Below, piece after piece: positions 974 to 64,000 of a DNA stretch of 64,000 bases. Both the position numbers and the translations under genes were made by a program. Source of the stretch: Vibrio sp. CDRSL-10 TSBA (GTDB lineage Bacteria > Pseudomonadota > Gammaproteobacteria > Enterobacterales > Vibrionaceae). The DNA lies in the NCBI GenBank assembly GCA_039696685.1, contig CP155565.1:248001-312000 (forward strand), given 5' to 3'. The notes under the pieces were generated by a model. That model made no database searches and had not been told where the DNA came from. It worked only from the letters and a program-made list of their open reading frames with translations. Numbering within the stretch: position 1 is the first letter of the stretch; the number at the start of each line of letters is the position of its first letter.

Positions 974-1478
974 ATGAAATATCTGACTTTACTCATGGCC
1001 AAACTTCAGCTGACTATCGGTGCGGTATGCCTGGTGATCTTTGTGGTAGCGACTCTGGTTCAGGTCGCTACCCGTTATCTGGGTATCTCGGTTCTGTGGA
1101 CAGAAGAAGTGGCGGTCAACGCCTTTATTTGGGCAATGTTTCTCGGTGCGGCCGTGATGGTCCGGGAAAACGAACACTTTAGTTTTCGCATCCTGACCGA
1201 CAAGTTTGAGGGTAACAAACGCTCCTGCCTGGTGCTGGTACAGAACCTGATTATGTTGGTGTTTCTGTATCCTCTGCTCTGTTTACAGTGTGGAAATTAC
1301 CCAGACATTCTGGAATTCGCGTTGGATTACCGTGCCTGAATTTAAACAGGGCTATATCTGGCTGGTTATGCCGGTCACCTTTATCAGTTCCAGTGTCTAT
1401 CTGGTCGATAACATGATCAAAGAAGTGGGGAAGTTAAGAAACGCTTCTAAGAAGGGGGTTGTATGGAACTCGCGTTAA
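974..1478 (+). CDS. TRAP transporter small permease DctQ (one-base insertion)
   Basis: Small four-helix membrane subunit that joins DctM to the binding protein. I chose the ATG at 974 because AAGGA lies 8 bases upstream. The first frame gives two membrane segments and the family-like LWTEEVAVNAFIWAMFLGAA stretch, then goes out of frame. A second frame supplies the C-terminal half (WITVPEFKQGYIWLVMPVTF). Deleting one T from GTTTC at 1261-1265 joins them into a normal protein of about 167 residues; a GTTTAC at 1281-1286 would also work, so the exact base is not certain. The end overlaps dctM by 16 bases, typical of translationally coupled dctQM. I treat the break as a sequence artefact shared with many genes here. 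Confidence 0.85.
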
Positions 1479-2722
1479 TTACAGTGCTGTTTATCGGCTT
1501 AATCATCATCGGGGTTCCGATTGCCTTTTCGATTGGTATTTCTGCTCTGACCGGCATTGCCACTATGTCTGGCACGCCAAATACCATGATTCCGATGAAA
1601 ATGTTTTACGGCCTTAATTCGTACGTACTTTTGGCGGTGCCATTGTTCGTACTGACTGCTAACATCATGAATAGTGGTAGTATTTCCCGCCGTCTGATTG
1701 ATTTCTCTATCGCTCTCGCCGGACGTCGTCCGGGTGGGCTTGGTCACGCTAACGTGATTGTGTCGATGCTGTTTGCCGGGGTAAGTGGCTCTTCAACAGC
1801 CGATACTGCAGGTGTCGGTAAGATCTTAATTCCGAACATGATTGATAAAGGTTACAGCCGCGAAATGTCGGTTGGGGTAACGGCGGCTTCGTCGACGATC
1901 GGCAGTATTATCCCGCCTAGTATCACCATGGTTATCTATGGCGGCCTGACCAATACATCGGTCGGACAACTGTTTATCGGCGGTATGTTGCCGGGTATCT
2001 TGATTGGTTTCGGGATGATGTTTGTGATTGGTATCATTGCCCGTCGCGACAACCTGCCAATTATGGAAAAGATTACCCGCGCTGAATTTATTGCGCTGGC
2101 TAAAGATGCTTTGCCTGCCATGATCACACCGCTGATCATTATCGGTGGTATCGTATTTGGTGTGTTTACACCAACCGAAGCGGCGGCTTTCTCGGCCATC
2201 TATGCTTACGCCATTAGTGCTTACTACTACAAAACCATCACCTGGCGCGATATGCCAAAAGTGTTTGTGGAAACGTTGAAGCTGAGCTGTCTGTCGTTAT
2301 TTGCTCTTGCGGCGGCATCTGCACTGGGTGAATTCCTGGGCTACTACAAAATCAACGTGATTGTCGCGGATTTCTTTAACAGCCTGGGCGGTAATCAATA
2401 TCTGTTCCTGTTTATCATCATTGCGTTCTTCCTGTTTATCGGCACCTTTATGGATGCGATTCCGGCTATGGTGCTGTTTGTACCAGTGATTTATCCGGTT
2501 GCGCTGTCGATGGGGGTGGATCCGGTACAGCTGGGCGTGGTTATCATTATTACTCTGTCGGTCGGTCTGATTACTCCGCCATACGGGTTATGCCTGCTGA
2601 TATCGAGTGTGATCGGCGGATTGTCTCTCGATCAATCGTTTAAGGCGGTGATGCCTTATATCGGTGTGATTCTGGCTGTTCTGCTGGCGGTGATCTTTAT
2701 GCCATTCGTGTTATTGGTGTGA
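1463..2722 (+). CDS. TRAP transporter large permease DctM
   Basis: Large membrane subunit (419 residues, about 12 helices) of the TRAP transporter, which drives solute uptake with an ion gradient. Family signatures are the N-terminal GVPIAFSIGISALTG, the GVSGSSTADTAGVGKILIP loop, IGSIIPPSI, and FTPTEAAAFSAIYA. The ATG at 1463 has a strong AGGGGG upstream. The gene is intact and is the last of the dctPQM unit. About 160 bases with a possible operator separate it from the sugar-kinase operon. Confidence 0.95.
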   Translation: MELALITVLFIGLIIIGVPIAFSIGISALTGIATMSGTPNTMIPMKMFYGLNSYVLLAVPLFVLTANIMNSGSISRRLIDFSIALAGRRPGGLGHANVIVSMLFAGVSGSSTADTAGVGKILIPNMIDKGYSREMSVGVTAASSTIGSIIPPSITMVIYGGLTNTSVGQLFIGGMLPGILIGFGMMFVIGIIARRDNLPIMEKITRAEFIALAKDALPAMITPLIIIGGIVFGVFTPTEAAAFSAIYAYAISAYYYKTITWRDMPKVFVETLKLSCLSLFALAAASALGEFLGYYKINVIVADFFNSLGGNQYLFLFIIIAFFLFIGTFMDAIPAMVLFVPVIYPVALSMGVDPVQLGVVIIITLSVGLITPPYGLCLLISSVIGGLSLDQSFKAVMPYIGVILAVLLAVIFMPFVLLV

Positions 2723-2794
2723 GCCTTGGATATGGGTGACAGTGCAAATGAGCCAAGCGTCGTTTGCCGTCACCAGCATTTTTTTAGTTAAAAT

Positions 2795-2810
2795 ATGGAA
2801 TCGGTTCCAT
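2795..2810. promoter_or_regulatory. Candidate operator ATGGAA-n4-TTCCAT upstream of kdgK
   Basis: A six-base-arm inverted repeat, ATGGAA tcgg TTCCAT, lies about 75 bases before the kinase start, in the only sizeable gap between the transporter and the catabolic genes. Its size and symmetry fit a LacI- or GntR-type repressor site. No regulator gene is present in the window, so the binding protein is unknown. Confidence 0.4.
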
Positions 2811-2884
2811 TGTTTGCAGCTCATTACCAATGGTGATGTTCAAAAGCTGGCGTGTGACAAGCGATGGAATTGGGGGAGTACGCA

Positions 2885-3845
2885 ATGAATACAGTACCAA
2901 GCAAGTCTTTTGTGACGCTGGGTGAAGCGATGGCGATGATGGTCGCCAACCAAACCGGCCCGCTGGCTAAAGTAGAGACATTTAACCGCCATCTGGCCGG
3001 TGCTGAACTGAATGTCGCGATTGGCATGGCCCGGCTTGGTTTTGACTCTCGTTACGTAACGAAAGTCGGCCGTGACTGCTGGGGCGAGTTCATCACTCAG
3101 GCACTGGCTGAGGAAGGAGTCAATACCGGTTGGATCTCGACCAGCGATGATCACTCGACCGGAATGGTTTTTAAAAGCCTGCAGAACGATGGCAGTGACC
3201 CTGCGGTGGAATACTTTCGCCGCCGTTTCTGCGGCCAGCACGTTGAGTGAAGATGATTTGCAGCCTGAGCTAATCAGTGACAACAGCCATTTGCACCTGA
3301 CTGGAGTGGCGGCTGCGGTATCTCCGTCGTTGCTGGCATTATCCCGCTATGCATTGCAGCAAGCCAAAGCGGCCGGCGCATCGACATCATTTGATACCAA
3401 TCTGCGTCCGACGTTGTGGTCGGATGAACAGACCATGCGCGACACCATCAATGAGCTGGCTAGTGGTTGCGATGTGGTGTTGCCGGGAATTAATGAAGGC
3501 AAAATTCTGACCGGTAGTAATGATCCGGAGGCAATTGCTGATTTCTATTTAGCGCGTGGGGTGCAGTTGGTGGTGGTTAAACTCGGCAGTGACGGTGCCT
3601 ACTTTAAACATGCCGGTGTAGAGTCGGGCACAGTGCAGGGTGTTGCGGTCGACAAGGTCGTCGATACGGTCGGTGCCGGTGACAGTTTTGCGGTTGGCGT
3701 GGTGTCAGCGCTGCTGGATGGCCGCACACTTGAACAGGCAGTAAAAAGAGGCAACTGGTTTGGCGCTCTGGCCGTTCAGGTGCGGGGTGACAGTGAAGGG
3801 CTGCCAAGTCGCGCTCAATTAAATCAATTTGAACAAAGGGCTTAA
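2885..3845 (+). CDS. kdgK: PfkB-family sugar kinase, probable 2-keto-3-deoxygluconate kinase (one-base insertion)
   Basis: Ribokinase-family enzyme that most likely phosphorylates 2-keto-3-deoxygluconate to KDPG for the Entner-Doudoroff aldolase. The ATG at 2885 follows GGGGGAG. The first part carries the PfkB start (VTLGEAMAMMVA, HLAGAELNVAIGMARLG). The frame then breaks at GTTTC 3225-3229. Removing one T gives a continuous 319-residue protein with the C-terminal signature DTVGAGDSF at about residues 260-268, where D is the catalytic base and the glycines form the anion hole. It is followed 2 bases later by the dehydrogenase gene. The specificity call rests on neighbours and general resemblance; another PfkB sugar kinase is possible. 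Confidence 0.8.
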
Positions 3846-3847
3846 CG

Positions 3848-5319: not shown

Positions 5320-5321
5320 TG

Positions 5322-6771
5322 ATGAAGGCGGATATCGGAGTTATCGGCCTGGCAGTAATGGGCCAGAAACCTTATCCTGAACATGAATGACCACGGCTTT
5401 AAAGTGGTAGCACATAACCGTACTGCGGCGAAAGTCGACGAATTCCTGGAAGGCCCGGCGAAAGGCACTAACATTGTGGGTGCTTACACCCTGCAAGAGC
5501 TGGTCGACAAACTGGAAGCGCCACGTAAAGTGATGCTGATGGTTCGCGCGGGCGCCGTGGTTGATGCTTTCATCGACCAACTGGTTCCTCTGCTGGACAA
5601 AGGCGACATCATCATCGATGGCGGTAACACCAACTACCCTGACACCAACCGTCGCGTTGCGGCACTGCGTGAAAAAGGCATCCACTTCATCGGTACGGGT
5701 GTATCGGGTGGTGAAGAAGGCGCTCGTTTCGGACCGTCTATCATGCCTGGCGGCGCACCGGAAGCATGGGAAGCGGTTAAGCCTATCTTCCAGGGCATCT
5801 CTGCCAAAACTGACGCAGGTGAGCCTTGCTGTGACTGGGTCGGCAACGACGGTGCCGGCCACTTCGTGAAAATGGTGCACAACGGCATCGAATACGGTGA
5901 CATGCAGCTGATCACTGAAGCATACCAGTTCATGAAAGACGGTCTGGGCATGTCTGCAGACGAGATGCAGGCTGTGTTTACTGACTGGAACAAAACTGAG
6001 CTGAACAGCTACCTGGTTGAGATCACTGCTGACATCCTGGGCTACAAAGACGAAGACGGCGAAGCTCTGGTTGAGAAAATCCTGGATACCGCGGGCCAGA
6101 AAGGCACCGGTAAATGGACTGGTATCAACGCACTGGACCTGGGCATTCCACTGACTCTGATCTCTGAGTCTGTGTTCTCTCGTTGTCTGTCTGCACTGAA
6201 AGACCAACGTGTTGAAGCCGAGAAACTGTTCGGCAAAACCATCACGCCGGTGGAAGGCGACAAGCAAGAGTGGGTTGATGCACTGCGTCAGGCTCTGCTG
6301 GCTTCAAAAATCATCTCTTACGCACAAGGCTTTATGCTGATGCGTGAAGCGTCAAACGAAAACGGCTGGGATCTGAACTACGGTAACGTGGCTCTGATGT
6401 GGCGCGGTGGTTGTATCATCCGCTCTGCGTTCCTGGGCAACATCCGTGACGCATACGAGAACAACGCGCAGCTGGCGTTCCTGGGCTCAGATGAGTACTT
6501 CAAAAACATCCTGACCAGCAGCTTGGCAGCATGGCGTAAAGTGGCAGCGAAATCGCTGGAAGCAGGCATCCCAATGCCATGTACCACGTCAGCGCTGACG
6601 TTCCTGGACGGCTACACCACCGCACGTCTGCCAGCGAACCTGCTGCAGGCGCAACGTGACTACTTCGGTGCGCACACTTACGAGCGTACTGACCGTGCAC
6701 GCGGTGAGTTCTTCCACACAAACTGGACCGGTACCGGTGGTGACACAGCGTCAACCACATACGACGTATAA
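5322..6771 (+). CDS. gnd: 6-phosphogluconate dehydrogenase, decarboxylating (one-base insertion)
   Basis: Oxidises 6-phosphogluconate to ribulose 5-phosphate with release of CO2 and NADPH (pentose phosphate pathway). The true start is the ATG at 5322, encoding an N-terminal GVIGLAVMGQ nucleotide-binding motif. That frame stops within 70 bases unless one A is removed from GAAAC 5366-5370, after which GQNLILNMNDHGFKV reads into the long frame. The repaired protein is 482 residues, the usual length. The signature SGGEEGARFGPSIMPGG and the GNDGAGHFVKMVHNGIEYGD catalytic Lys/His region are intact, as is the C-terminal tail. It is the last gene of the sugar-acid operon and ends in a strong hairpin. 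Confidence 0.93.
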
Positions 6772-6802
6772 CGCCAAATCGATGGGTTTGGTGATAGGTA
6801 AA

Positions 6803-6825
6803 AACAGCCCGCAAAGCGGGCTGTT
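6803..6825. terminator. Bidirectional terminator between gnd and idi
   Basis: A GC-rich hairpin AACAGCCCGC-aaa-GCGGGCTGTT lies between convergent gnd and idi, with A-rich and T-rich flanks allowing use from both sides. Confidence 0.8.
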
Positions 6826-6830
6826 TGCGT

Positions 6831-7790: not shown

Positions 7791-9230
7791 TATTTATTCT
7801 CCTGTTTCTGTTGTGCCAGCATTTCGGTCAGTTTATTGACCCACTCTTTGGTTTCAGGCAAATCTTTCACCGGCTGGCTGTAGTGGCCACGAGTATCCGG
7901 CGCGACAGGGGTCGTCGCATCGATGATCATTTTATCGGTGATACCGGCAGGTGATGAGCCAGGGTCCAGCTCCAGCACTGACATGTTTGGCAGCTGAACC
8001 AGGTCGCCGGCCGGGTTCACTTTGGAGGACATCGCCCACATCACTTGTTGCAGATCGAACGGATCCACATCTTCATCAACCATGATCACCATTTTCACGT
8101 AGCCCAGACCATGTGGCGTGGTCATCGCACGCAGACCGACCGCACGAGCGAAGCCGCCATAGCGTTTCTTGGTTGAGATAATCGCCAGCAGGCCGTGGGT
8201 GTACATGGCATTCACAGCTTGCACTTCAGGGAATTCGGCTTTGAGCTGCTTGTACAAAGGTACACAGGTTGCCGGCCCCATCAGGTAGTCGATTTCTGTC
8301 CATGGCATACCCAGGTACAGCGACTCGAAGATTGGCTTAGTGCGGTACGACACTTTATCGATACGTACGACCGTCATATTACGACCGCCGGAGTAGTGAC
8401 CGGTAAATTCTCCAAACGGGCCTTCAATTTCACGAACACGACTTTCAATCACACCTTCCAGCACCACTTCTGAGCCCCAGGGCACATCAAAGCCGGTCAG
8501 CGGTGCGGTCGCAATCGGATAAGGCTTCTCACGCAGTGCGCCAGCCATTTCATATTCGGACTGATCGTATTGCAGCGGCGTTGCCCCCATCAGAGTGATC
8601 ATCGGGTCGTTACCCAGGGTGATGGCTACGGGTAGATCCTGACCGCGCTCTTCCGCTTTATTAAGGTGAATCGCGATATCGTGCATTGGCACAGGTTGCA
8701 GGCCAAGTTTACGCTTGCCTTTCACTTCCATACGGTAGATACCGACATTCTGCTTACCGAAATTATCCGGGTCAGTCGGATCGCGGGAAACGGTACAGGC
8801 TTTATCCAGGTAAAAACCACCGTCGCCATCGTTGAGGCGGAACAGCGGCAGGATATCAAACAGGTTGATCTCATCACCGTCTACCGTGTTTTCTGCCCAT
8901 GGCGGGTTGTCACGACGTTCTGGTGCGACCGGATACTTATCCCAGCGGCGCACGAATTCAGCGATCTGTTCACTAACCGGTGTTTTCGGTGGCAAATTCA
9001 TCGAAATAGCGTGGTTTCTGCCAGGAGCCGATGGTATTCATCGCGACGCGGGCATCGGTAAAGCCTTCGATATTATCGAACCACAATGCCGGGGCGCCTT
9101 CACCGATACGGCCAGTGGCATTCGCTGCTGCGGCGATGTCCGGTTCGGCTTTCACCTGCTCAGAAATTCTGAGCAGTTGTCCATGTTGTTCTAATGATTG
9201 CAGAAAACTGCGTAAATCATCGTATGCCAT
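7790..9230 (-). CDS. UbiD-family hydroxyarylic acid decarboxylase, catalytic subunit (one-base insertion)
   Basis: Prenyl-FMN-dependent reversible decarboxylase. The closest remembered relatives are the BsdC/VdcC/EdcC proteins acting on vanillate, 4-hydroxybenzoate or protocatechuate. The N-terminal part (LRSFLQSLEQHGQLLRISE, GEGAPALWFDNIEGF) is in one frame and the rest in another. Removing one base from GTTTC at 9014-9018 reads SWQNHAISMNLPPKTPV and gives 479 residues, normal for this group. Conserved parts include EGPFGEFTGHY and the KRYGGFARAVGLRAMTTPHG region. Substrate cannot be fixed from sequence. The adjacent MarR gene and operators suggest induction by a phenolic acid (inference). 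Confidence 0.9.
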
Positions 9231-10475: not shown

Positions 10476-10843
10476 AGTCATTCAGTAGTTCTTCAACCAG
10501 AGACTGGATAACGCGAATATGTTCTCTACCAGCGTTATCGATATGAATCCCGCAACTGACACTAACAACACAATTTAATCTTGAAGCCAGAGATTGAGCC
10601 ACGTGATGTGCCAGCAGTTTCTTCTTTGTGCCCCAGTACACATATCACAGATGTCGATGCGCTGACTTTATCCGGATCATTCAGGCTGGCTCTGGGCTGA
10701 GCCAGCGCTGTTGCACCGATGTGCGCTTGATCACCACCGTATATCGCGACCATTAAGTCTCGACCGACGTGCAGTACGGTCATATTGACTTCAATCCCAC
10801 TTCTCTGCTTGCTTAAAGAGTAAGAGACGTGTTGCTGACTCAT
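10459..10843 (-). CDS. LpdD-like protein, putative prenylated-flavin chaperone (one-base insertion)
   Basis: About 127 residues after removing one T from GTTTC at 10617-10621, which joins ICVLGHKEE to LLAHHVAQSLASRLNC. Both halves have no start or stop consistent with separate genes. The sequence (VGRDLMVAIYGGDQAHIGATALAQPR, then VSVSCGIHIDNAGREHI) resembles, from memory, the small LpdD/subunit-D-like proteins associated with gallate and protocatechuate decarboxylases and proposed as prenyl-FMN chaperones. Its position directly behind the MarR gene and next to the UbiX/UbiD operon supports that. The family call is by recollection, not search. Confidence 0.65.
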
Positions 10844-11464: not shown

Positions 11465-12245
11465 ATGATACGGCATAGTACAAAAATTGTGGTTTCTTTA
11501 TCTGTGTTACTGTTTGCCTTTGGTTGTCAGCCAAAGCAGGATGAGCAAATGAAATCAGAGATGGAGCAGTTAAAGCAGCAGATAACGCAGTTAACAGAAG
11601 ATGTGAAAAAGATAAATGACAATGTAGAGAAAATAGATAAGGTGGTATTCAAGCCCAAATATAAAACTCTACCCAATCAAGATAATGTGTTTGCTGATGA
11701 GCAAACACCGAGTTTAGGTAGCAGTGACGCTAAAATTGCGATTGTTGAGTTCTCCGATTTTCAATGTCCATACTGTAAGCGTTTCTCTGACAATACTTTT
11801 GAACAGTTAAAAACAAATTATATTGATACCGGTAAAGTAAAATATATTGCCCGTGATTTTCCATTGAGTTTCCACCCTCAAGCTAAGGGAGCAGCCGTTG
11901 CTGCATTGTGTAGTTTCCAGCAGGATGCTTACTGGCCGATGCGTGCTTTGCTGTTCAACAACGTGAAGCAGTTAGGTAATGAACTGTATCAACAGTCTGC
12001 TTCTGAGTTAGAACTGGATAAAGAGAAATTTGATAATTGCCTTTCTGATCAAGACGTAATGAAAAAAGTAGAGCAGGATATGGCTCTGGGGAGTTCATTG
12101 GGGGTACGAGGAAACGCCAAGCTTTCTGGTAGGTAAAGTTGAAAACGGTCAATTGATAGAACCTCAGTTAGTTGTTGGGGCGCAGCAGTATGCAGTATTT
12201 GCTGAGTTACTCGATAGCTTGGATGATACAGACAAAAAAGAATAA
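11465..12245 (+). CDS. DsbA-family thiol oxidoreductase, exported (one-base insertion)
   Basis: 259-residue exported protein after removing one A from GAAAC at 12111-12115, which turns GVRGNAK-stop into GVRGTPSFLVGKVENG, restoring the cis-proline loop (TP) of thioredoxin folds. The N-terminus is a hydrophobic signal ending in AFGC, which may be a lipidation site though the residue before Gly is unusual. A heptad-rich segment follows (about residues 25-60, MEQLKQQITQL), probably a short coiled coil. The catalytic motif is CPYC within FSDFQCPYCKRF. I chose ATG 11465 because GGGGG lies 7 bases upstream. Coiled coil plus DsbA/ScsC-like domain suggests an oligomeric periplasmic oxidase or isomerase (inference). 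Confidence 0.85.
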
Positions 12246-16610: not shown

Positions 16611-18933
16611 CTATGGCGCTAACGCCGGTTCGTTAGTCTGAATTTGAATACCAATGGTACTGGCTTCTACGTTTCCTTCATCATCAGAGACTTCTATATC
16701 CACGGAATTAAGCAGGCTGATGTTACCATCAGCAGGATCAAATCCTGGTAATAGTTTTATGGTAAAGGCACATTCGTAAAGACCTCCGGGAGCCAGAAAC
16801 TGCACCTGTTGTGCAGAAGTCTGGTGATACGACAGTGTCATAACTGCTGAGACTTGCTTCATCAAGAATAACGAAGTTTACGTTGTCTGTTGCACCGTCT
16901 GTAATCGCCATACCAGCAAAGTTCATGGTATCGATAGTCATGTTATCGACATTACCATTTATAATACGAACAAACGCGGTCGCTTTCATGGCAAACTCCG
17001 GAGTTAACTGCAGAGGGAGATCCAAGAAAGTCACGGTAGCATCGTCAGCATCCGATACGTCCAAGCCGTCTTCGTCTGTACCGTAAATAGTCGCGACGTT
17101 GACGTGCTCATCACCTGCATTACCTTGCAGTTGCAATGTAATCGTACAGCTATCAGTTTCACCCGGTGCGAGTGTGACAGGAAGTGCAGAACATTGACTG
17201 GTCAGATCGCCGAATCTATCGTCGACTAACTGGTCGAAAGTGACGTCATCAACGGTAGGATTACCCATACTGTCTACAGTTTTGACACTGAAGGTAAAGG
17301 TATATTCTACGTCGCGATAGACAGTAGGATCGTCGCCGGTCTCATCCACTGAGGTTGGGTTTGCCTCTTTGATTAATTCAACCACAGATGGGACGTCGCG
17401 AATAGAGACTGTCCATGAGTCTGAGTGCATTGCCTCATCACTTTCATTGTCAACCGCAACGGCTTTAACGACGTTAGTGACAGATTCACCCTGATTTCCT
17501 CCCACATATTGCGTGAAAGTACAGGTATAAGCATTAGCTGCACCGTTATCAATGTAGCCACCGGTGGCACAAGTCCCCATTCCGTTGAGATCTGTAACAA
17601 CAGCTCCTATGGTGTCTGTCAAAGTAGTCAGTTTCACTGGAGAGTCAAAGTCCTGAGAGGTATTGGTGACTTTCACTGTATAGGTTACGTTTGCTCCAGG
17701 TTCCAGGACTTCGTCTGTGTTAGCGGTTTTCTCGACTTCAATGGTCGGTGGAACATTGGTGACTTGTACTGTTCTTTCCACACTACAATGTTCGCCAGCA
17801 GCAGAAGTACCAACCCCTGCAGGACAGGTTTCTCCGTTGGTCACCGGATCACCGTTCTTATCTTGCATAGTGACTTTGACCACGTCTTTGTAAAGTTCCG
17901 GGCTCTGGTCATCTGGTAGATCGGTATCCACAATATGGACTGTAAATTGACAGCTGTAGGTACCACTAGGCGCTATTTCTAGCAAAGGTGAACCCACTGT
18001 ACAGTTCGTCGCGGTTAGATAGACACCGTCACTGCCAGGTGAGGATGTAGCACCCCATAAATTCAGCGTTTGATCGTAGCTGCCATCACCGTTGATATCG
18101 ATTTCATCAGTAACGGAGCTCAGATACAGAGATGTTTGACTATTAGGGTTAGTGAAGCTGAGGTTAAATGTGTATGTACCACCTGGCTCTGGGCGAGTCG
18201 TTGGATTACCTTCAGTTTTCACAATGACTGGTGGTGTAGGTTTGATGAATACGTCGATGTTAAACGTATCACAGTTACATTTAGATTTGGTGTTTGGAAT
18301 CTGACCAGGATACGGATCTTCTTGAATGGTACAGTTATCTCGCTCTTGGTTATCCCACGCCGCACAGTAAGTAAAGTCTGCACGATTATCACCGTCAGCA
18401 TCCTCACAGAGCATGGTAATGGTTTCGTTTTCCAAAACGTAAGTATCCGAACCCAATGCTTTAGTGATGTCGCCACAGACATCCCCATCCAGGTCTGCAT
18501 CAGCATCATAGCCGCTATCGCCTGGTATCGGCAAAATCATACTACAGTTATCACCGCCATCCTGAACAACCTGTGGGCTGTCTTCCGTTAACGGCAGGTA
18601 AAAGGTAGTGTCATAACGTTCATTTGCGTTAGTACGTACCGTGACATCAGCATTGAATGAAAATACTTGTCCCGGAGTACACTCTGCGTTTGGATCCGTT
18701 GGAGTAACCTGAGTGATTTCCACATCATTCGCAGTACAGTTCAGCGCATCCTGAGGCAGAGAGTTGCCAGGCTTCATCAGGTATGCGTCAGCCATACAGG
18801 CTACTTGGTCCAAATTTGGATAAGCACCTGCATTCGCTGGCGAAGACTTCGTTAACCCATACAGGGCTGCCGTACTCATCAAACCAATACTGAGTATTCT
18901 GATAAGTCGGCTATGTATTAAGCGTTCCATCAT
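16611..18933 (-). CDS. Secreted DUF11-repeat protein (one-base insertion)
   Basis: About 773 residues once one base is removed from GAAAC at 16796-16800, which joins FCTTGAV to LAPGGLYECAFTIKL. The N-terminus is a signal peptide ending near SPANAGA. The body is a series of beta domains of the DUF11/conserved-repeat type: repeated tokens are VEKTANTDEVLEPGANVTYT and VELIKEANPTSVDETG, and cysteine-containing YTCTF / YSCQF / DSCTI strands recur once per repeat. No catalytic motif or sorting signal is visible. It is convergent with the M6 protease, suggesting two exported proteins of a common surface or secreted programme (inference). Two in-frame ATGs (18933, 18930) are possible. Confidence 0.8.
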
Positions 18934-19502: not shown

Positions 19503-20529
19503 GGGCTTTGTTGCGGAATTCAACTTGAGAGCGAACACTAGCTAAATCGTTTGTATTTAAACGATATACTGGGTTTCGGGTATGCCTATCCCTGTTAGCT
19601 TGTTGAGTGCTTTGATCATGGCGTATGTTTCCCCAACCTGTGCGTTGTAATTTCGAAACGTGAGTGAAGCGCCTAGTAGCTGTTTTACGCGATACATAGC
19701 GGTCTCCGACAATGAACGCCTGTGGTAGCCATACTTTCGTTTCCACTTTTTGTTCGAACCATAGAGCTTTTGGCAACCAACCGCCAGATTACGTGGATGC
19801 CCCTTTTCCCAGAAGGCGGCTCCTTCACGTGGAGGGATTAGAGGTATCGCTTTCTTAACCCTAATCGCCCTGTGGCACTCCAAGTATCGTATGCGCCATC
19901 TCCCGAAATTTCCTTGATGGATCGGCGTGTTTGTTTGAGTAAATTTGGGAGTACTTCCGCGTCTGTCACGCCTGAAAGTGTCAGTATCAACAGCAAGATG
20001 GAGTTTACGCCAGACTCGACGCTTACCATCGGTTTCCGTGCTTTTTCACTTTCCATTCACCCTCACCGTATACCTTGAGCCCAGTAGCATCAATAGCTAG
20101 GTGTTGGATGGCGCCTCGTGATGAGGCTTTGAAATTAATCTCAACATCCTTAGCTCGGCGACTGATGCAAGTATAGTGGGGACAAACCAATGGGACGTTA
20201 GCCAATCTAAAAACAGAGTCGATAAAGCCTTGTAGCGCCCTTAATGGTAAGGAAAAAATGCGCTTTACCATGAGAGCAGTCGTGATAGCGAGATCACTAA
20301 ACAATCTTGGTCTACCACGTTTATCCTGTTTAGATTGTTTCCACTCAGTTATGGCCTCTTCGTCAATCCAAAACGTGAGTGAACCTCTGTTGATCAAGGA
20401 GTTATTATACTTGCACCAGTTAGTGGTTTTGTAGCGAGGCTTCGGCATGAAATCAAAGTCAGTGAACGAATGTCCCTGATCTGATCGTAATATTCTGATT
20501 TAGTTCATTCGATTTCCGCAACAAGGCCC
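19503..20529. mobile_element. Decayed IS5-family insertion sequence
   Basis: About 1.03 kb bounded by near-matching inverted ends: GGGCTTTGTTGCGGAA at 19503-19518, and the complement of GGGCCTTGTTGCGGAA at the right end (20514-20529). The transposase on the minus strand matches IS5-group proteins. I see no clear target duplication at the edges. It sits between the DUF11-repeat gene and the GGDEF gene, in the AT-rich accessory zone. Confidence 0.85.
19557..20448 (-). pseudogene. IS5-family transposase, broken
   Basis: Three blocks of one transposase lie in three frames: LTFWIDEEAITEWK...KVYGEGEWKVKKHG; then SGVTDAEVLPNLLKQTRRSIKEISGDGAYDT; then ECHRAIRVKKAIPLIPPREGAAFWEKGHPRNLAVG to the C-terminus PETQYIV. 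The first break is partly the GAAC-to-GAAAC insertion at 20032-20036. After correcting it the frame continues through WRKLHLAVDTDT, but about ten residues expected before SGVTDAEV are missing. TGACACT is present at the junction, which fits a deletion between short repeats. A further single-base deletion lies near 19880 between AYDT and CHRAIR. It cannot make active transposase. Confidence 0.85.
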
Positions 20530-30683: not shown

Positions 30684-31007
30684 GTCAGTGGCTAAAAATT
30701 TGCGACATCAACGAGATTGTACCGGGAAACCGGAGTGTGTGCGCTGGTCAATGGCGAGCAGGTTGCCCTGTTTCGTCCCGGACAAGAAAGCAGTGTGGCG
30801 GCAATTGCTAACCTGGATCCTTTTGCTAAAGCGAACGTTTTGTCCCGTGGTCTTATCTGTGAACATCAGGGGGAACTGTGGGTCGCCAGTCCTTTGAAAA
30901 AACAGCGCTTTAATCTCACAACAGGTCTGTGTCTGGAAGACGAACGTTTCAGTGTTAAAACGTATGAGACGCGAGTCTGTGACGGCATGATAGAAGTCGC
31001 CCTGTAA
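30680..31007 (+). CDS. nirD: Nitrite reductase small subunit (one-base insertion)
   Basis: Rieske-fold accessory subunit of NirBD, 108 residues after removing one A from GAAAC at 30726-30730. The start ATG at 30680 overlaps the nirB stop (ATGA). The first 16 residues (MSQWLKICDINEIVPG) join TGVCALVNGEQVALFRPGQ in the other frame, and the rest (CEHQGELWVASPLKKQRFNLTTGLCLEDE) is normal. Length equals that of the E. coli protein. Confidence 0.92.
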
Positions 31008-45246: not shown

Positions 45247-45899
45247 AGAACTTTTCGAACAGAGACATTTTCAGCTGGTCGGAAAGTTCGATGGCTTCCT
45301 CAAATTGTACACCGATCAAATGCCCCTGATTCTGGCGGCGGATACTGGCGATGTGGGACGTCATATCGTCTGGTAGCAAGTTATCTAAATCGCAACTAAA
45401 GCTCACGCGGTGGCGGACCTTGAGATCATTTTGTCCGCCGATATAGATGCCACAGCCACACACGGACAAGTCAACCAGCTCCCCTTCAAATTTGCGTTCG
45501 CTCTTTTCTGCGTATTCAGTCAGTGAAACAGGCAGAGAGAGTTTATAGCGTTCATGCTCACGAATGGTCTTAGTGACAAAATATTTGGGCAGGCGTAGTG
45601 AAAACATTGAACAAGGTGCAGAGATAACCTGAATAATCGAGGTTTTGAACGCGACAATGTGGCCAAGTTCGGTATCCGTAATCCCTCGCACAACCATTTG
45701 CGCATTAGTCAGTTTTCGCATGATCAACTGTTCCTGAACTTTCGGTTGAAAATCCAGCAGCAAAAATTGTTCAGCTTTGTAACCGATCAGAGTGGTCGTA
45801 AAAGTCACGCTGTCATCAGGACCGAAACTGAATGGTGGCCGAAATTTTAATGCCCGGCGTCAGGTATTTAATCAGTTCGGCAGAATGTGATGTCGCCAT
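45227..45899 (-). CDS. PilZ-domain cyclic di-GMP-binding protein, PlzE-like (one-base insertion)
   Basis: 223 residues once one base is removed from GAAAC at 45824-45828; the true N-terminus MATSHSAELIKYLTPGIKIS then runs QFGPDDSVTFTTTLIGYK into the long frame. An N-terminal YcgR-like domain is followed by a PilZ domain with REHERYKL (RxxxR type) and DLSVCGCGI (DxSxxG type), the c-di-GMP contacts. It is convergent with luxQ and overlaps it by 20 bases. From memory, V. cholerae has a PilZ gene (plzE) at the same place beside luxPQ. Confidence 0.85.
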
Positions 45900-46863: not shown

Positions 46864-48346
46864 ATGGAATCTACATTAAAGGCGCTGATGGTTCAGGGCA
46901 CAACGTCAGATGCGGGTAAGAGTGTTTTGGTGGCTGGCCTGTGCCGAGTGCTCAAGCGTCGCAACATCAAGGTGGCCCCCTTTAAACCGCAGAATATGGC
47001 ACTCAACAGTGCTGTGACACCCGATGGCGGGGAAATTGGGCGCGCGCAAGCGGTACAGGCGATCGCGTGTGGTATTGAGCCGACAGTGCATATGAATCCG
47101 GTTCTGCTCAAACCCAATTCGGATACCGGCGCACAGGTGATTTTGCAAGGGCGCGCAATGTCGAATATGGAAGCCAACAGTTATCACGATTACAAAAAGA
47201 TTGCGATGAACACGGTGCTCGACTCTTTCTCCCGTTTGCAGACCGAGTATGACAGCGTGATGATTGAAGGGGCCGGGAGCCCGGCGGAAATCAACCTGCG
47301 TGCTAATGATATCGCCAACATGGGCTTTGCTGAGGCGGCCGATGTACCGGTGATTATCGTCGCGGACATTGATCGTGGCGGTGTATTCGCCCATCTGTAT
47401 GGCACACTGGCATTACTGTCAGAATCTGAGCAGCAGCGCGTTAAAGGCTTTGTTATCAACCGCTTTCGTGGCGATATTGGTTTGCTGCAGTCTGGTCTCG
47501 ACTGGCTGGAGGAGAAAACGGGTAAGCCGGTCATTGGCGTCTTGCCGTATTTACATGGCTTTGATCTTGAAGCGGAAGATGCTATTGCCGCCAAACAGGT
47601 ACTGGGTGATAACGTTAAGCTTAATGTCGTGGTGCCAGTGTTCACCCGTATCAGTAATCACACCGATTTTGATGCCTTACGCCAAAACCCGGACATCAAT
47701 CTGCGTTATGTCGGTAAAGGTGAGCGCCTCGATGGCGCAGATCTGATTATTCTGCCCGGCAGTAAATCAACCCGCGCTGATTTAAAACATCTGCGTGAGC
47801 AAGGTTGGGACAAAGACATCCTGCGCCATTTGCGTCTGGGAGGCAAAGTGATGGGGATTTGTGGTGGCTATCAGATGCTCGGACATTGGGTACATGACCC
47901 GGATGGTGTGGAAGGAGAAGCCGGCAGTACAGCAGGGTTAGGACTGCTGGATACAGAGACAACTCTGACGCAAGAGAAACAGCTCACCAATGTCTCTGGC
48001 CAGTTGTATTTAGACGGTGAATCGGTCGCTGTAACCGGTTATGAAATTCATGTCGGCCGTACTGTCTCAGTTTCAAACGAAACGAGAATTAATCCGCTGA
48101 TCAAGTTGACTAATGGGACTGAAGATGGTGTTGTAAGTGAATGTAATCAGATACTTGGTACTTATCTGCACGGTATCTTCGATACATTCTCTGCCGCCCG
48201 GCTTATCTGTCAGTGGGCAGGAGCTCAGGGCATTCAAACACACGATCATCTCAAGGCCAAAGAAACAGGCGATCGATCGCATTGCCGATGCAATCGAGGC
48301 ACATCTGGATCTTGCACTTTTGTGGCCGCAACTTGACGAGAATTAA
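46864..48346 (+). CDS. cobQ: Cobyric acid synthase (one-base insertion near 3' end)
   Basis: ATP-dependent amidation of adenosylcobyrinic acid a,c-diamide in the cobalamin pathway. 493 residues after removing one A from GAAAC at 48262-48266, which restores [32 protein letters not shown] and the stop at 48344-48346. The N-terminal dethiobiotin-synthetase-like domain has [11 protein letters not shown]. The C-terminal glutamine amidotransferase domain has the nucleophile Cys in [10 protein letters not shown] and His in GTYLHGIF. The start at ATG 46864 is the family start; earlier ATGs in frame are not. modA begins 1 base after the stop. Confidence 0.93.
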
Positions 48347-48347
48347 C

Positions 48348-49821: not shown

Positions 49822-50928
49822 GTCAGTTACAGGTGCAGTTCCAAAAGCAGTTGGGCAGCACAATGCTTGATGTCGACCTAGTTTTACCCGGCAAAGGCAT
49901 CACGGCCGTGTTTGGGCGTTTCTGGTGCAGGGAAAACCTCGTTCATCAATGTCATCAGTGGCTTAATCAGACCGGATGAAGGCTTGATTACGGTTAATGA
50001 CCGGGTGTTGTTTAATAGTAGGGGTAAGGTCAGCCTGCCGGTCGAGCGACGCCGCATTGGCTATGTGTTCCAGGAAGCCCGGCTGTTTCCGCACTATACG
50101 GTGCGTGGCAATCTGAATTATGGCGTGCGGGCCAAAGATGACGATTATTTCGATTCTGTCGTTTCATTACTGGCGTTGGAGCCATTGCTATCCCGTTATC
50201 CGAACGCCTTGTCCGGAGGGGAAAAACAGCGGGTGGCGATTGGCCGAGCGCTGTTGTCCAAGCCGGATTTGTTGTTGATGGATGAGCCGCTGGCCTCGTT
50301 AGATTTACCGCGTAAACGGGAAGTGATGCCGTTTCTTGAGCAGTTGTCACAACAGGTGCAGATCCCTATTCTGTATGTGACCCACAGCATGAATGAAATT
50401 CTGCGTCTGGCGCAGCATCTGGTCGTGCTGGATGGCGGCAAGGTGGTGGCATCAGGGCCGATTGAAGAGGTCTGGTCATCGCGCAGTATGCGGCCATGGC
50501 AGTCGTTTAGTGAGCAGAGCACGCTGTTTTCCGCGACTATTGGCCAGCATCAGCCTCGGTATGGTCTGACTCAGATTGAACTCGCCAAAGAGGTCGGTTT
50601 GTGGGTTCAGCAAGTCAGTGGTGAACCGGGCGCTGCGATTAGGCTGCAGATTCGCGCCAACGACGTATCGGTGACATTAAATGATCCGGGTAAAACTTCG
50701 ATTCGAAACATTCTCGCTGCCACCATTGCTGATATTGAATACCATCAGCAGGGAGAGAATAAAAAGAGTATTGCTCTCAAGCTAGAATTGGCGCCAGAGT
50801 GCTATTTATGGGCGGTGATTACCGAGTGGGCGCTGGAAGATCTCCAGCTTGAGGTCGGGATGTCGGTGTACGCGCAGGTCAAAGGTGTCAGTGTTTCCCA
50901 ACGCGATATGGTGTTGAGCCAGGTCTGA
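49818..50928 (+). CDS. modC: Molybdate ABC transporter ATPase (one-base insertion)
   Basis: 369 residues after removing one T from GTTTC at 49918-49922, which restores the Walker A motif as [11 protein letters not shown]; without the correction the first 35 residues are lost and the P-loop is destroyed. Other motifs are normal: [16 protein letters not shown] (signature), [12 protein letters not shown] (Walker B), H-loop THSMNEIL. The C-terminal MOP/TOBE domain ([20 protein letters not shown]) senses the oxyanion. Start ATG 49818. Confidence 0.93.
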
Positions 50929-53385: not shown

Positions 53386-55540
53386 TCAGTTAACCCGCAC
53401 CGCGAACTTGCTGGCAAGTGAATGCAGTTCAGGCAACATGCGATAAATAAGGTGCAACTGCTGCAGCACCATACGTGCTGAGCTGTCATCCTCTTCGCGC
53501 CATTCCGACAGACGTTTTTCCAGCCCTTCAGAATTGATCGCACTGATGTCACATTCTCCCTCGCGGGTAAAGAGCTGCTGATACAAGACATCCAGATGTT
53601 TATGGATGGCACGATGCGAGTCGAGTACCAGTTGATGCACCGTTTCATCATCAATCCGGGTACGGTGCGCGCCCAGTGCGGAGATGTAACTCAGCAGCGC
53701 ATGACTCAGGGTCAGAAAGCGATAACTTTCATCGGTAGCCGCGCGATACTTACCCGGTTCAGCCAGCATGTTACTTACGGCTGCTGCCAGAGAGGCATCC
53801 TGATTGTGCGCGTTACGCCGGGCGATGCGATAGGTCAGGTTGTCTTTCTTACCAATACGGTACTGACCGATAATCTGGTCCAGATACGTTTTATTGGCTT
53901 GGATCGTCTCAGCCATCACCTTGTGCAGACGTTTTGAGTGCCAGTCCGGCAAGATAAAGGCCACGGCAGCGACCGCTAAGCCGCAGCCGATCAGTGTATC
54001 GGCCAGACGGGGCAGGACCACCGCAAAACCTTCACCCAGTTGGTTAAAGCAAAACAGTACCAGCAGGGTAATAAAGCCGGTCGCATAACCATAGTTGTTA
54101 AGACGAAACGCAAAGAACATGACTCCGGAGAAGACAATGAAGACCAACTGGCTCTCCTGAGACGGGAAGAAGGTAAGCAGCGGTACCCCAATCAGCAGGC
54201 CGGCCAGAGTACCAATAATACGTGAGGTCAGCTTTTTACGTGTCGCGGCGTAGTTGGGCTGGCAGACAAACAAAGTCGTCAGCAGAATCCAGTAGCCCCG
54301 TTTCCAGGCCAAGCCCCTGTAAAATGCCGTAACCGAGAGTCAATGCTATCGACATCCGTACCGCGTGGCGAAACAGCAGCGAATCTTTATTCATGTTGGC
54401 TTTGATACGCAGCCACATTGATTTGAGCGTATGTGCTTCGGTATCGTCCAGTTCATCGTCTTCCGGTTTGCTCACGTCCGGGTTGCTCACGTTACTTAGC
54501 TGACGTTCAACGGTAGCAAGGTTATTGAACAGATAACCGAGCTGTGCGAGCAGCATTTTCCATTCCGGTTGTTTTTGTTGCTGAAGATAGGTCAGCGAAA
54601 GCTGAAGTTCATCCAATGCCAGCACCGAGTCACTGGCGTGCTCATAGTGGGCACCGATACGAATGGAGTGCGCAATGTCGCGACAGGCTTTGGCCTGGGT
54701 TTCGAGAAGATGTTTGAAGCGGAACATGACGTCTGTACGGCCAAAATGGTCTGCCAGCTCCTGATAGCGATAGTGGGTGGAACTGGCCCGCTCATGAATA
54801 TCTTGGGCAACAAAATAGATTTTCAGAAAGCGGTCACTGGCACCGTCAACGTGGCCTCGCTTTGAGCGGGTCAGGAAAGTCGCTTTACACTGGTTCAAGG
54901 CACTGACGGTCGATGCGTTGAGGTTGGCTTCGGTAATACGGTGCGGTTGTGGCGCCAGGTTAGACACCGGATGAAACAGTTTGGATTTGGCATCAAGGTA
55001 GTTCGCTAACTGGACAAATACGTTCGCCAGATCCTGCTGCACCGGCTGAGTTGGCCACAGTGCATGCCAGAGCATAGAAACCAGGTAATACCAGGCAGAG
55101 CCGCTCAGCAACAGCAAAGGCTGGAACCAGATGTTGGTGCTTTGGTCTGCTCCGAGCATGGCATAAATGGCGATCAGCAGAGAGCCGAAAGCAATGCTGG
55201 CGTAGCGGGCTCCCATTGCGCCGAGCATGGTAAAACCAAACGTTGAAATAAACAGGCCGAGCGCAAACAATGCTGGTGTGTCGAACAGAATTTCAATTGA
55301 GAAAGAGGCCACAGCAAAACAGATAAATGTCAGCGAAATGGCTTTCAGGCGCCCGGTAAAACTGTCATCACGTTCTGCCAATGCAGCGGCGATTACGCCA
55401 AGGATCAGCGGCGTGACCCAGGTATTGAGGTTGTAATGCCAGGCCGGGATGACAACACCGAGTAAGGTGACCAGAATCAGGACACTATAGTTGATGGTTT
55501 TGTTAGCCCAGTAAAGACGAAGTTGATTGGTTAACTGCAC
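53386..55540 (-). CDS. yccS: YccS/FUSC-family inner-membrane protein (one-base insertion)
   Basis: 717 residues after removing one base from GTTTC at 54300-54304, which reads LQGLGLERGYWILLTTLFVCQPNYAATRKKL. Two blocks of about five membrane helices (residues ~15-165 and ~395-510) flank a long cytoplasmic helical region, the FUSC arrangement of YccS/YhfK and the AaeB efflux pump. Length matches E. coli YccS. A transport role for aromatic acids or similar is suspected in the family but unproven for YccS. Confidence 0.88.
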
Positions 55541-57960: not shown

Positions 57961-58588
57961 ATGAGTAAGGCACTGATTTTAGTCGATGTTCAAAATGACT
58001 TCTCCCCTGATGGAGCATTACCGGTTTCCGCAAGGCGATCAAATCGTACCTGTCATCAACCAACTGATCCCTCATTTTGAGCATGTGATTGCAACCAAAG
58101 ACTGGCATCCGGCCGGACACGCCAGTTTTGCATCGGTTCAGGGCAAGCAACCTGGAGACGTGATTGATTTAAAAGGGATCAGTCAAATTATGTGGCCCGA
58201 TCACTGTGTGCAGTTTTCAGACGGCGCAGAATTTATTGCCGGTTTAAACAGTGAGGCGATTACCCATACGGTTGTGAAAGGGACCAATCCGGATATCGAC
58301 AGTTATAGCGGATTTTTTGATAATCAGCGTTTGCAAAGCACAGGTTTGAATGACTACCTCGCTGAGCAGGGGATCGATGAAGTGTTTATTGCCGGTCTGG
58401 CGACCGATTATTGCGTCAAGTTCACCGCATTAGATGCAGTCTCGCTGGGTCTTCGTACCTGGGTGATCAAAGATGCGTGCCGGGGAGTCAATATTGCCCC
58501 GCAAGATAGCGACGATGCTTTTCAGGCGATGCAGGATGCCGGCTGTGAACTGATTGCTTCATCGGTGTTCTTGGCGCAGCAGGTGTAA
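57961..58588 (+). CDS. pncA: Nicotinamidase (one-base insertion)
   Basis: Hydrolyses nicotinamide to nicotinate in NAD salvage. 208 residues after removing one T from GTTTC at 58024-58028, so that the N-terminal ILVDVQNDFSPDGALPV continues as PQGDQIVPVINQLIPHFEHVI. Catalytic residues are Asp in LVDVQND, a Lys in the VKGTNPDIDSYSGF region, and Cys in ATDYCVKFTALDA; metal-binding Asp/His are in KDWHPAGHASF. Followed by a shared terminator. Confidence 0.93.
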
Positions 58589-59629: not shown

Positions 59630-60251
59630 CTATAGCGTAATGACTGACCACGCCAGTAGGGCATGCGCGAGATAGTAACTCACCAGGACCGCCTGACGAG
59701 TGATGAGCGTTGAAGCCAAAAAACGGTTTCTGGCCCACATTAAATCGCACAACAGCAGCATGAAAGCACCCATGATAGCGAGGCTAGCCGACGTAGACTG
59801 GCTGCTGAGCCAATACTCAGCGCTCGAAGAACCCAAAGTTGCAATCACCACCAGATAGATCAGAAACCGGTACCATCAAGCGCTCCAGATTGGGCAGCAG
59901 CAAGAGGAAAGTCAGGATACCGAGTGCAAAAATGACCACAGGAATCCACCAGGTCACCGAACCGACCATGCTGATAAATCCTATCACATAGCAGGTGTGG
60001 GCAAGTAAATAGCCGGCGGAGGAGAGTCGGCTGGTGTCACCTGTCAGGGCGATAATAGTGTCAGCCAAAGCGGAGACCAGCAGACCGCTGCTCACACATA
60101 ACGCTAACGGGGTAGTGGTGTCTGAGCTGAATAAAATGGCCGTTGCCATCAGTAGCAGTGGCAGTGGTTTGGTTAGTGAACACAACCAGCGTGGCCCACG
60201 CTCGTCAGAAAACAGTTGAATACAGGATACGATCAGAATACTTGGCCACAT
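59630..60251 (-). CDS. YhhN/TMEM86 family membrane protein (one-base insertion)
   Basis: 206 residues and about seven to eight membrane helices once one base is removed from GAAAC at 59863-59867, reading RLMVPVLIYLVVIATLGSSSAEYW. The family includes eukaryotic lysoplasmalogenase. Conserved-type features are KPLPLLLMATAI near the N-terminus, ALADTIIAL, HTCYVIGF, and GAFMLLLCDLMWA. Start at ATG 60251. Function in bacteria is not settled. Confidence 0.85.
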
Positions 60252-61645: not shown

Positions 61646-61848
61646 TCTGTTCCTTTTTTGGGACAAGACATAAATAGTCCCTTGTGGGTGAACTTTCTTT
61701 GAGAAATAAATGATTATGTTGACTATATTATCATTATGATTCCTGCCGTACGCTGCTCCGATAACTCGAGGATGGTCAGCCCAGCAGTGAAGTATAAGCA
61801 TGGTTTGTCCACACCTTCAGGGATGATGTTCCCCGATTAGGAGGGGAG

Positions 61849-62829
61849 ATGGCTAAATACAGATATGCATTACCCCAGCTTCAAGGTGGATTTTTTATGA
61901 CAGATGGCGGCCTGGAAACGACGCTGATCTATCTGGAACATTTTGATTTACCTGTTTTTGCCGCTTTTATTTTGCTGCAAAATGAACAGGGAGAGCGAGC
62001 CCTAAGACGCTATTATGCCTCTTACGCCGAGATAGCCCGACGCCATGATGTCGGTTTAATTTTGGAAACGGCGACCTGGCGGGCCAATCCAGAGTACGGT
62101 GGACGTCTGGGATATAGCCTGGCACAGCTTGAAACGGAAATGCGCAAAGCCGTCAGTTTGTTACTTGATATTCGCCAGGAGTATGAATCGCCGCACACCC
62201 CGGTGGTAATCAGTGGTTGTCTTGGTCCGCGTGGGGATGGTTACAGCGTGCAGGAAAGGATGACCGCTCAGGAAGCCGATGATTATCACGATTTTCAAAT
62301 CCACAGTTTTACCACTGCAGCTGCAGATCTGGTCACCGCGCTGACACTCACTTATGCCGAGGAAGCGATTGGCATTTCTATGGCGGCCAGACGGCACGCA
62401 ATGCCGGTGGTGATTTCCTTTACGGTTGAAACAGACGGCCGTCTGCCGTCGGGTCAGTCGTTAGGTGAAGCGATTTGTCAGGTTGAACTCGATACCGATG
62501 CCTATCCGTCGTATTACATGATCAACTGCGCTCACCCGAGTCATTTCAGAGCCGCGGTCAGCGGTGGTGAACCGTGGGTAAGGCGCATACATGGCCTTAG
62601 GGCAAATGCCTCCGCGCTGAGTCATGCAGAATTGGATCAATGCACCAAACTCGATGATGGTAACCCGCACGAGCTCAGCCTTGACTACACACAGCTGATC
62701 AATAAGTCACTACGTCACGTCAACATTGTCGGCGGATGCTGTGGTACCGACACCCGTCACTTAGATCGAATTGTCGCAAGCTGTTTACCCGTTTACCGGC
62801 AAGGAAAGGGGGTTAAACCGTTAAGTTAA
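61849..62829 (+). CDS. Homocysteine S-methyltransferase family protein
   Basis: 326-residue zinc-dependent methyltransferase-like barrel. The N-terminal FFMTDGGLETTLIY matches the family DGGxxT start. The zinc ligands are Cys in MINCAHPSHF and the vicinal pair in VGGCCGTDTRHL. Family members use S-methylmethionine, betaine or related donors; the donor here is unknown. Intact, with a strong ribosome site. Convergent with glgC. Confidence 0.88.
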   Translation: MAKYRYALPQLQGGFFMTDGGLETTLIYLEHFDLPVFAAFILLQNEQGERALRRYYASYAEIARRHDVGLILETATWRANPEYGGRLGYSLAQLETEMRKAVSLLLDIRQEYESPHTPVVISGCLGPRGDGYSVQERMTAQEADDYHDFQIHSFTTAAADLVTALTLTYAEEAIGISMAARRHAMPVVISFTVETDGRLPSGQSLGEAICQVELDTDAYPSYYMINCAHPSHFRAAVSGGEPWVRRIHGLRANASALSHAELDQCTKLDDGNPHELSLDYTQLINKSLRHVNIVGGCCGTDTRHLDRIVASCLPVYRQGKGVKPLS

Positions 62830-63029
62830 ATAGTTAAAGATAAATAGTTGAATAGTTAACGGGGGAGTCGGGGAAATGGTTTCGCAGTCATAGACAGACA
62901 GCGAGTGTTGCGAGTTATACGTGCAGGCAGAGTACGTCAGATGGGATGGCGGTGAAGAGGAATCACCATGCGTGAATCCTCTCGACTGATTGCCGGTTAC
63001 CATTTTAGTAACAGCGGCGATTCGTGGGC

Positions 63030-64000
63030 TCAGAAACTGGTAGCTTTCCGGAACGACCACTATGCCTTTTTCGGAAATACGGAAACGTTTCGCATCTTCA
63101 ATCGGATTCAGTCCGATCTGAGTATGAGGCGGAATTTTTACGTGTTTGTCGATAATACAATTGACCAGCTGGCAACCGTCACCGACTTCGACATCGTCAA
63201 ACAGAATACAATCAACAATGGTTGCACTATCGTTGATACGTACGCCGGATGAAATGACCGAGTGTTGCACGGAACCACCAGAGTTTACTACTCCGTTGGC
63301 GATAATGGAGTTGATAAAAATTCCCTCATTACCTGTGGCGGAGGAGACGGTCCGGGCTGGTGGCAACTGCGGTTCATAAGTCCGAATTGCCCAGTTTTTC
63401 TGGTACAGATTCATTGGCGGAACAGGATCCAGCAGGTCCATGTTGGCTTCATAGAACGAATCGATGGTACCCACATCGCGCCAGTAGTTATCTTTGGCAA
63501 CCCGACCTTTTTCGTCACCAAACTGATAGGCATAGACGTTATTGTCAGGAATCAGTTTCGGGATGATGTCTTTACCAAAATCATGACTGGAAGCCTCATT
63601 CTCAGCATCTTCTTTCAGTACTTGTTGTAACACAGCCATGTCGAAGATATAGATCCCCATGGATGCCAGACTCCGGTCAGGCCGGTTTGGCATGGATGGC
63701 GGATCGCTCGGTTTTTCAATGAATGACGTGATGCGGTGTTCGTCATCAATCGCCATTACACCAAACGCCTTTGCTTCCTCGCGTGGTACATCCATACAGG
63801 CAATGGTCAGTGCCGCGCCTTTTTCACGGTGTTCATCCAGCATCGCGGCATAGTCCATGCGATAGATATGATCGCCGGACAGAACAACGACGTGTTTGGC
63901 ATCGCTGCGCGACAGTAGCCACATGTTGTGGAACAGGGCGTCGGCAGTCCCTTCGTACCATTTACCACCTTTACGCATTTGTGGGGGGACCACAGTGATG
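63030..64000 (-). CDS. glgC: Glucose-1-phosphate adenylyltransferase, 5' end outside window (one-base insertion at stop)
   Basis: Makes ADP-glucose for glycogen synthesis. The N-terminus lies beyond the right edge. Visible: KWYEGTADALFHNMWLL, VVVLSGDHIYRMDY, FIEKPSDPPSMP and DNYWRDVGTIDSFYEANMDLL, followed by left-handed beta-helix repeats (GGSVQHSVISSGVRIN). As written, the frame runs on to 62821 with a low-complexity tail. Removing one A from GAAAC at 63033-63037 produces a stop right after KGIVVVPESYQF, a natural end for Vibrio GlgC. I take 63030 as the true 3' end. Confidence 0.92.

Follow-up and report, generated by a model that had tools for sequence, protein, structure and literature searches.

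How can 25 genes within a single 64-kilobase (kb) stretch of a bacterial genome be interrupted by what appears to be one and the same lesion? The question is raised by the genome of Vibrio sp. CDRSL-10 TSBA (GCA_039696685.1; G000), which consists of two contigs (C1 and C2; 4.9 megabases) with assembly scores of 95.9% completeness and 4.55% contamination, and in particular by positions 248,001 to 312,000 of its contig CP155565.1 (G000:C1:248001-312000), the whole stretch of 64,000 nucleotides (nt) that is called the window here. The relatives of its Gnd protein also point to the genus Vibrio. A sequence-only reading of the window had claimed that 25 otherwise normal genes are split at GAAAC (GTTTC on the other strand) and that the deletion of one letter restores each frame, and had proposed that a modification at GAAC, possibly phosphorothioation by a Dnd system, had disturbed base calling. 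In the following, "the word" means GAAAC/GTTTC in the assembly, read as GAAC/GTTC plus one letter. The analysis described here indicates that the frame breaks arose during sequencing or assembly and very probably record phosphorothioation of the DNA by a Dnd system.

The window was examined with proteins of relatives (loci other than its own) by frame-aware alignment, with a best tblastn hit of at least 35% identity, and a +1 shift was assigned to a listed site if it was located no more than 15 nt away. At least one alignment crossed 18 of the 25 sites, and a +1 shift at the word was found at all 18; every crossing alignment was shifted at 17 of these sites, and 8 of 9 at the remaining one (44439). 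At six of the seven uncrossed sites, the flanking pieces were profiled separately, and N-terminal and C-terminal family parts in two frames flank the site in the genes for a VdcC-type UbiD protein, an lpdD-like protein (PAC_bac) and an IS5 transposase. Thus, of the breaks claimed, 18 stand by alignment and three are well supported by split family matches, whereas the support is weak for dctQ and one-sided for the dsbA-like gene and glgC (Table 1). The earlier coordinates fall exactly on GAAAC or GTTTC in 24 of 25 cases; the position given for fabH2, 36899, was wrong by ten, and the word is actually found at 36889. Five further shifts in the window, all of them without the word, were located 15-46 amino acids from alignment ends.

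A lesion of this single type on this single word is seen on both contigs. Genome-wide comparisons were made with the closest of the 227 genomes of the genus that were searched (G103; 76% identity, measured at one 2-kb gene). A survey of contig 1 covered 780 kb. Of 322 proteins from G103 open reading frames, the 167 with best matches of at least 60% identity were aligned, yielding 78 +1 shifts and 21 shifts of other classes (12, 7 and 2). Among all 5-mers, GAAAC/GTTTC showed the strongest enrichment where +1 shifts occurred (73 of the 78, with 5.0 expected; p = 9e-81), and the remaining top words overlap GAAAC; the word was not among the top 5-mers of the other shift classes in these 780 kb. 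The indel spectrum against a relative, which had been named as a test, therefore revealed the enrichment of the GAAC word. After the addition of 400 kb of contig 2 and of further G103 proteins (274 genes), the word was present at 113 of 127 +1 shifts and at 3 of 31 shifts of other classes. All 14 word-less +1 shifts were located 4-35 amino acids from alignment ends, and therefore only internal shifts, i.e. those more than 40 amino acids from an alignment end, were retained in a filtered set, from which alignments covering less than half of the reference were also dropped. In this set of 316 genes (283 kb, the part of the genome aligned with G103 proteins and E. coli references of essential type), the word was found at 90 of 90 internal +1 shifts and at one of six other shifts, with 63 near-end shifts excluded, so that the claim of one shared lesion word is borne out far beyond the window. 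The fraction of GAAC/GTTC words hit in aligned genes ranged from 4.0% (90/2243) to 5.5% (113/2054), in agreement with the partial modification that had been predicted. By extrapolation, the whole genome would hold about 1,500 or more lesions.

A plain fault of the base-caller or polisher at GAAC, without any modification, might be considered as an explanation, because A runs that gain a single base, as here, are a common type of error. Such a fault is, however, difficult to reconcile with the low fraction of GAAC words affected (about 4%), with their sharp dependence on the flanking bases, described below, and with the overlap between GAAAC and the remaining top words at +1 junctions. In addition, 29 other records of Vibrio and its kin, the platforms of which may differ, had no internal +1 shift when they were compared mutually (201 genes, 227 kb). 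The single shift in this control set was a -1 shift with the word nearby, after 27 near-end shifts had been excluded, and a smaller control of 13 genes was free of shifts. An explanation without modification is thus improbable. A reverse control, in which the genome's own open reading frames were compared with G103, produced 69 apparent shifts, 57 of them of the -1 class; it was dropped, as these would mirror the genome's own breaks, the out-of-frame tail of a broken gene still being aligned.

The breaks are present in the deposited sequence and could thus, in principle, be real mutations that were caused by genome decay or by a GAAC-specific mutator. A set of 68 E. coli proteins that are essential or nearly so was used as reference, and 45 of them aligned over at least 80% to the parts of contig 2 that were examined. 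Ten of the 45 genes were broken (rpoA, rpoB, rpoC, rplD, rplE, rplF, rplO, rplP, rpsK and obgE), all by a +1 shift and all on the word. We infer that a cell carrying such breaks could not live; therefore, the extra letter comes from sequencing or assembly and is not real DNA. Furthermore, dndD is broken although its product would be required, the breaks in rplO and rpoC do not coincide between this genome and a second Vibrio genome (G087, discussed below), and the pattern of genuine pseudogene decay, in which essential genes are spared and many lesion types occur, was not observed. Real mutations are thus refuted in practice and have a vanishingly small probability. Still more remote is programmed or corrected frameshifting at GAAAC in vivo: a single word shared by all breaks would be in line with it, but the majority of the GAAAC/GTTTC words in aligned genes do not coincide with a +1 break (113 of 746 do), and G087 reads GTTC no more than two codons from 6 of the 10 broken essential-type sites. 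As a side observation on one of these genes, two rpoB matches were obtained in 9 of 223 genomes including G000; in the other eight (G062, G104, G105, G133, G134, G137, G139 and G018), they could represent contig ends, duplicates or other error types.

A GAAC-targeting modification system had been predicted, and DndB, DndC, DndD and DndE as well as DptF, DptG and DptH were found to be encoded on contig 2 (locus L101, G000:C2:1196001-1216000; Table 1), with a DndC specificity loop of the GAAC type. This loop, GYPAPTRSFRW, is identical in E. coli B7A and in G087, and its Thr-Arg-Ser is known to go with the target GAAC/GTTC (PMC12193691). The assignment to the GAAC-type Dnd systems is supported by gene set and loop, and by a partial occupancy with flank preference that is read from the imprint (see below). 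DndABCDE-DptFGH systems of the GAAC/GTTC type have been described for E. coli B7A, Salmonella Cerro 87 and Vibrio tasmaniensis 1F-267 (PMC12193691), and DptFGH is present here as well. In the aligned parts, the identities to the proteins of B7A are 70% (DndC), 66% (DndB), 65% (DndE) and 54% (DndD). Unlike in B7A, dndB is adjoined by a TIGR04096 gene, and no such gene is present in a 25-kb stretch of B7A; a further difference is that the assembly splits both dndD and dptH. Of the 227 genus genomes searched, 29 had DndC matches above the cut-off, and a class-wide search found such matches in 8 of 369 genomes. Among 11 other Vibrio DndC loci, the loop is Thr-Arg-Ser in one and Thr-Lys-Ser in one, has the form Arg-X-Lys, for which GGCC is the predicted target, in five and was unaligned there in four; the further carrier of Thr-Arg-Ser is G211. 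The Thr-Lys-Ser that replaces Thr-Arg-Ser is found in G227 (locus L219), the DndC of which is 66% identical to that of B7A.

Phosphorothioate sites mapped in a previous study had an occupancy of 12%; among the bases before the word, they preferred M (A/C) at flanking position -1 and C at -2, and among those after it, K (G/T) at +1 and G at +2 (PMC9521924). In G000, the -1 position is A or C in 70/90 hit and 941/2153 unhit words, and the +1 position is G or T in 64/90 and 994/2153, respectively. Words of the form M-GAAC-K are hit in 10.9% of cases (50/458), compared with 0.9% of those with neither preferred flank (6/632). T at -1 is found in 2% of the hits, in 33% of other GAAAC words and in 38% of GAAC words; it is rare in the hits only, and therefore the flank bias is not inherent to GAAAC. 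A longer motif, CAGAAAC, had been suggested by the first contexts and was rejected, because the flanks varied and the preferences were merely graded.

A precedent for a sequencing effect exists in Salmonella, where nanopore errors revealed phosphorothioates in GAAC/GTTC, namely at 4.4% and 3.9% of the motifs, the detections falling to 0.6% and to none detectable in a dndC mutant, and where the modification was described to disturb the nanopore signal across strands (PMC9069010). Motif and fraction, about 4%, are shared with the present case; the difference is that the errors in that study are read statistics relative to a reference, whereas the errors described here are frameshifts fixed in a consensus. 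A possible mechanism would be as follows. In the living DNA, the backbone would contain a sulfur next to the G, on its 3' side, at a minority of the GAAC/GTTC words. This sulfur, and not a mark on a base, would slow or shift the sequencing signal, and reads of native DNA, probably nanopore reads, would call the A run, or the T run on the other strand, one letter longer, resulting in GAAAC. If enough reads on both strands agreed, the consensus would keep the extra letter.

The main rival of phosphorothioation is a base modification at GAAC, introduced for example by the TIGR04096 putative methyltransferase or present as a mixed sulfur and methyl mark, that would disturb base calling. GAAC is a substrate common to N6-methyladenine and phosphorothioate according to Chao et al. 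2017, as cited in PMC9069010. Arguing against this rival, the methyltransferase family PF01555 has no match in G000 and PF02384 has a single match that is barely above the cut-off (21.6 versus 20.4 bits), these being the two families searched, and both the partial hit rate and the flank preference resemble the results of phosphorothioate mapping. Clear members of both families are present in G087. Taken together, a base modification seems unlikely, somewhat less so than a fault without modification.

It should be noted that several observations weigh against an imprint of phosphorothioation. A TIGR04096 gene is located beside dnd in both imprinted genomes (L226:10347-11891 in G087), which leaves a base mark as a less probable alternative. 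G at flanking position +2 shows only a trend (39/90 hit versus 725/2153 unhit words, p = 0.075), and C at -2 is not enriched (27/90 versus 662/2153). Overall, the context of the predicted sites agrees with the published preference at three of four positions, at one of these as a trend. The passages of PMC9069010 that were considered contain no statement that phosphorothioates yield insertions rather than other errors. In G087, four shifts of other classes without the word, one of them in dptH, are found if the filter for alignment ends is not applied. A frameshift excess was not seen in three dnd-positive E. coli stretches (25 to 41 kb), in which one integrase gene and one gene of the H-NS family were flagged as frameshifted while the other flagged genes were incomplete. 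The dndC gene is carried by 204 of 5426 complete E. coli genomes, and RefSeq leaves out assemblies that are rich in frameshifts.

The same imprint is seen in a second dnd-positive Vibrio genome, G087, which like G000 comprises two contigs. Its own dndC is split between two frames and has a +1 shift located on the word. Of 16 internal +1 shifts in 143 kb of this genome, 15 carry the word; a single internal shift of another class was seen, and 24 near-end shifts were excluded. Among 57 essential-type genes, eight are interrupted, each by a +1 shift on the word. The flank bias is similar, albeit with small numbers (13/15 at position -1, p = 0.006; 12/15 at position +1, p = 0.05). In addition to rplO and rpoC, obgE is broken in both genomes, within three codons and thus possibly at one site. 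The lower lesion rate of G087 may result from lower occupancy, sequencing depth or a different caller. No broken gene was found among eight essential-type genes in G144, the DndC of which is not above the cut-off, or among nine in G229, which has an Arg-Met-Lys loop, with only 20 kb covered in each case; the dnd-positive G219 had no shift in just three aligned genes (10 under looser filters). About 2 kb from its dnd operon, G087 also encodes a restriction endonuclease that binds phosphorothioated DNA (NF045808, L226:1677-2555), together with a DGQHR protein; its presence near the genome's own dnd operon poses a puzzle of self-restriction, unless it serves another target.

Errors that are bound to motifs of a modification on which callers were not trained have also been described for nanopore-only genomes (Modpolish, PMC10687267). 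In that study, the motifs are GCWGC and GCTGG and the method skips insertion and deletion gaps; its main text contains none of the strings 'phosphoroth', 'GAAC' and 'dnd'. A literature search, with most preprints and subscription journals outside its scope, retrieved no report of assembly frameshifts that are caused by phosphorothioate.

Table 1. Frame breaks in the window (window coordinates) and genes of the dnd/dpt locus (coordinates relative to L101). Gene names in the window are those of the sequence-only reading, except for gnd and the genes matched by a family profile.
Region	Feature	Position	Strand	Evidence
Window	DctQ-type gene	1261..1265	-	Two halves of Pfam DctQ, in different frames, join at word; weak match of the second (E 0.067)
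Window	kdgK	3225..3229	-	+1 break; 1/1 alignment, identity 0.52
Window	gnd	5366..5370	+	+1 break; 65/65 alignments
Window	UbiD-family (VdcC-type) gene	9014..9018	-	Frame changes at word between profile parts 1-70 and 69-467
Window	lpdD-like (Pfam PAC_bac)	10617..10621	-	Frame changes at word between profile parts 3-63 and 60-113
Window	thioredoxin/DsbA-like gene	12111..12115	+	One-sided: match to residue 255, site at 256; other piece matches nothing
Window	DUF11 gene	16796..16800	+	Presence of GAAAC word only
Window	IS5 transposase	20032..20036	-	Profile parts 1-133 and 195-288 in different frames on the two sides, about 60 positions apart in the profile
Window	BCCT transporter	24097..24101	-	+1 break; 2/2 alignments
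Window	ATPase-wHTH	26102..26106	+	+1 break; 1/1, identity 0.44
Window	ATPase-wHTH	26922..26926	-	+1 break; 1/1, identity 0.44
Window	nirB	28969..28973	-	+1 break; 1/1, identity 0.88
Window	nirD	30726..30730	+	+1 break; 1/1, identity 0.62
Window	nirC	31893..31897	-	+1 break; 1/1, identity 0.90
Window	MFS	35371..35375	+	+1 break; 1/1, identity 0.84
Window	fabH2	36889..36893	+	+1 break; 1/1, identity 0.86
Window	glpK	38325..38329	+	+1 break; 2/2 alignments
Window	luxQ	44439..44443	-	+1 break; 8/9 alignments
Window	PilZ	45824..45828	+	+1 break; 1/1, identity 0.60
Window	cobQ	48262..48266	+	+1 break; 1/1, identity 0.86
Window	modC	49918..49922	-	+1 break; 1/1, identity 0.80
Window	yccS	54300..54304	-	+1 break; 7/7 alignments
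Window	pncA	58024..58028	-	+1 break; 7/7 alignments
Window	yhhN	59863..59867	+	+1 break; 1/1, identity 0.50
Window	glgC, near 3' end	63033..63037	+	One-sided: family match to residue 319, site at about 322; shift-free alignment stopped short of site
L101	DptF	9-1787	+	Profile match
L101	DptG	1790-3142	+	Profile match
L101	DptH, in two frames	3102-8229	+	Profile match; +1 lesion on word
L101	DpdB-like gene, between dpt and dnd operons	9035-10186		87.4 bits
L101	DndE	10238-10585	-	Profile match
L101	DndD, in two frames	10585-12598	-	Pieces 246.7 and 234.7 bits, cut-off 245.85; +1 lesion on word
L101	DndC	12607-14238	-	551 bits, cut-off 290.4
L101	DndB	14235-15314	-	Profile match
L101	TIGR04096 dnd-associated putative methyltransferase	15513-17540 (G000:C2:1211513-1213540)	-	Adjoins dndB

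Apart from the breaks, the window contains adjacent genes for tRNA-Leu (taa) and tRNA-Cys (gca) at 22609-22798.

One consequence of the imprint, which we regard as likely though less firmly established than the imprint itself, would be that public assemblies of native DNA hold readable phosphorothioate epigenomes, in which, in the presence of a Thr-Arg-Ser DndC, GAAAC breaks map the sulfur sites at base level. The mark would also break the annotation of the very genes that produce it, i.e. dndD and dptH in G000 and dndC in G087, so that sulfur-marked bacteria would be systematically under-recorded. If this is true, a finished assembly contains a base-resolution map of a mark on the DNA backbone, and every assembly with a GAAC-type DndC could be checked for the imprint without new experiments. 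The choice of the GAAC sites that bear sulfur could then be compared between species; the two Vibrio genomes share the M-GAAC-K bias, and the sites are mostly different in the few genes compared. Such genomes would, moreover, lose genes on paper, their own dnd genes included, and distorted gene catalogues and completeness scores may result.

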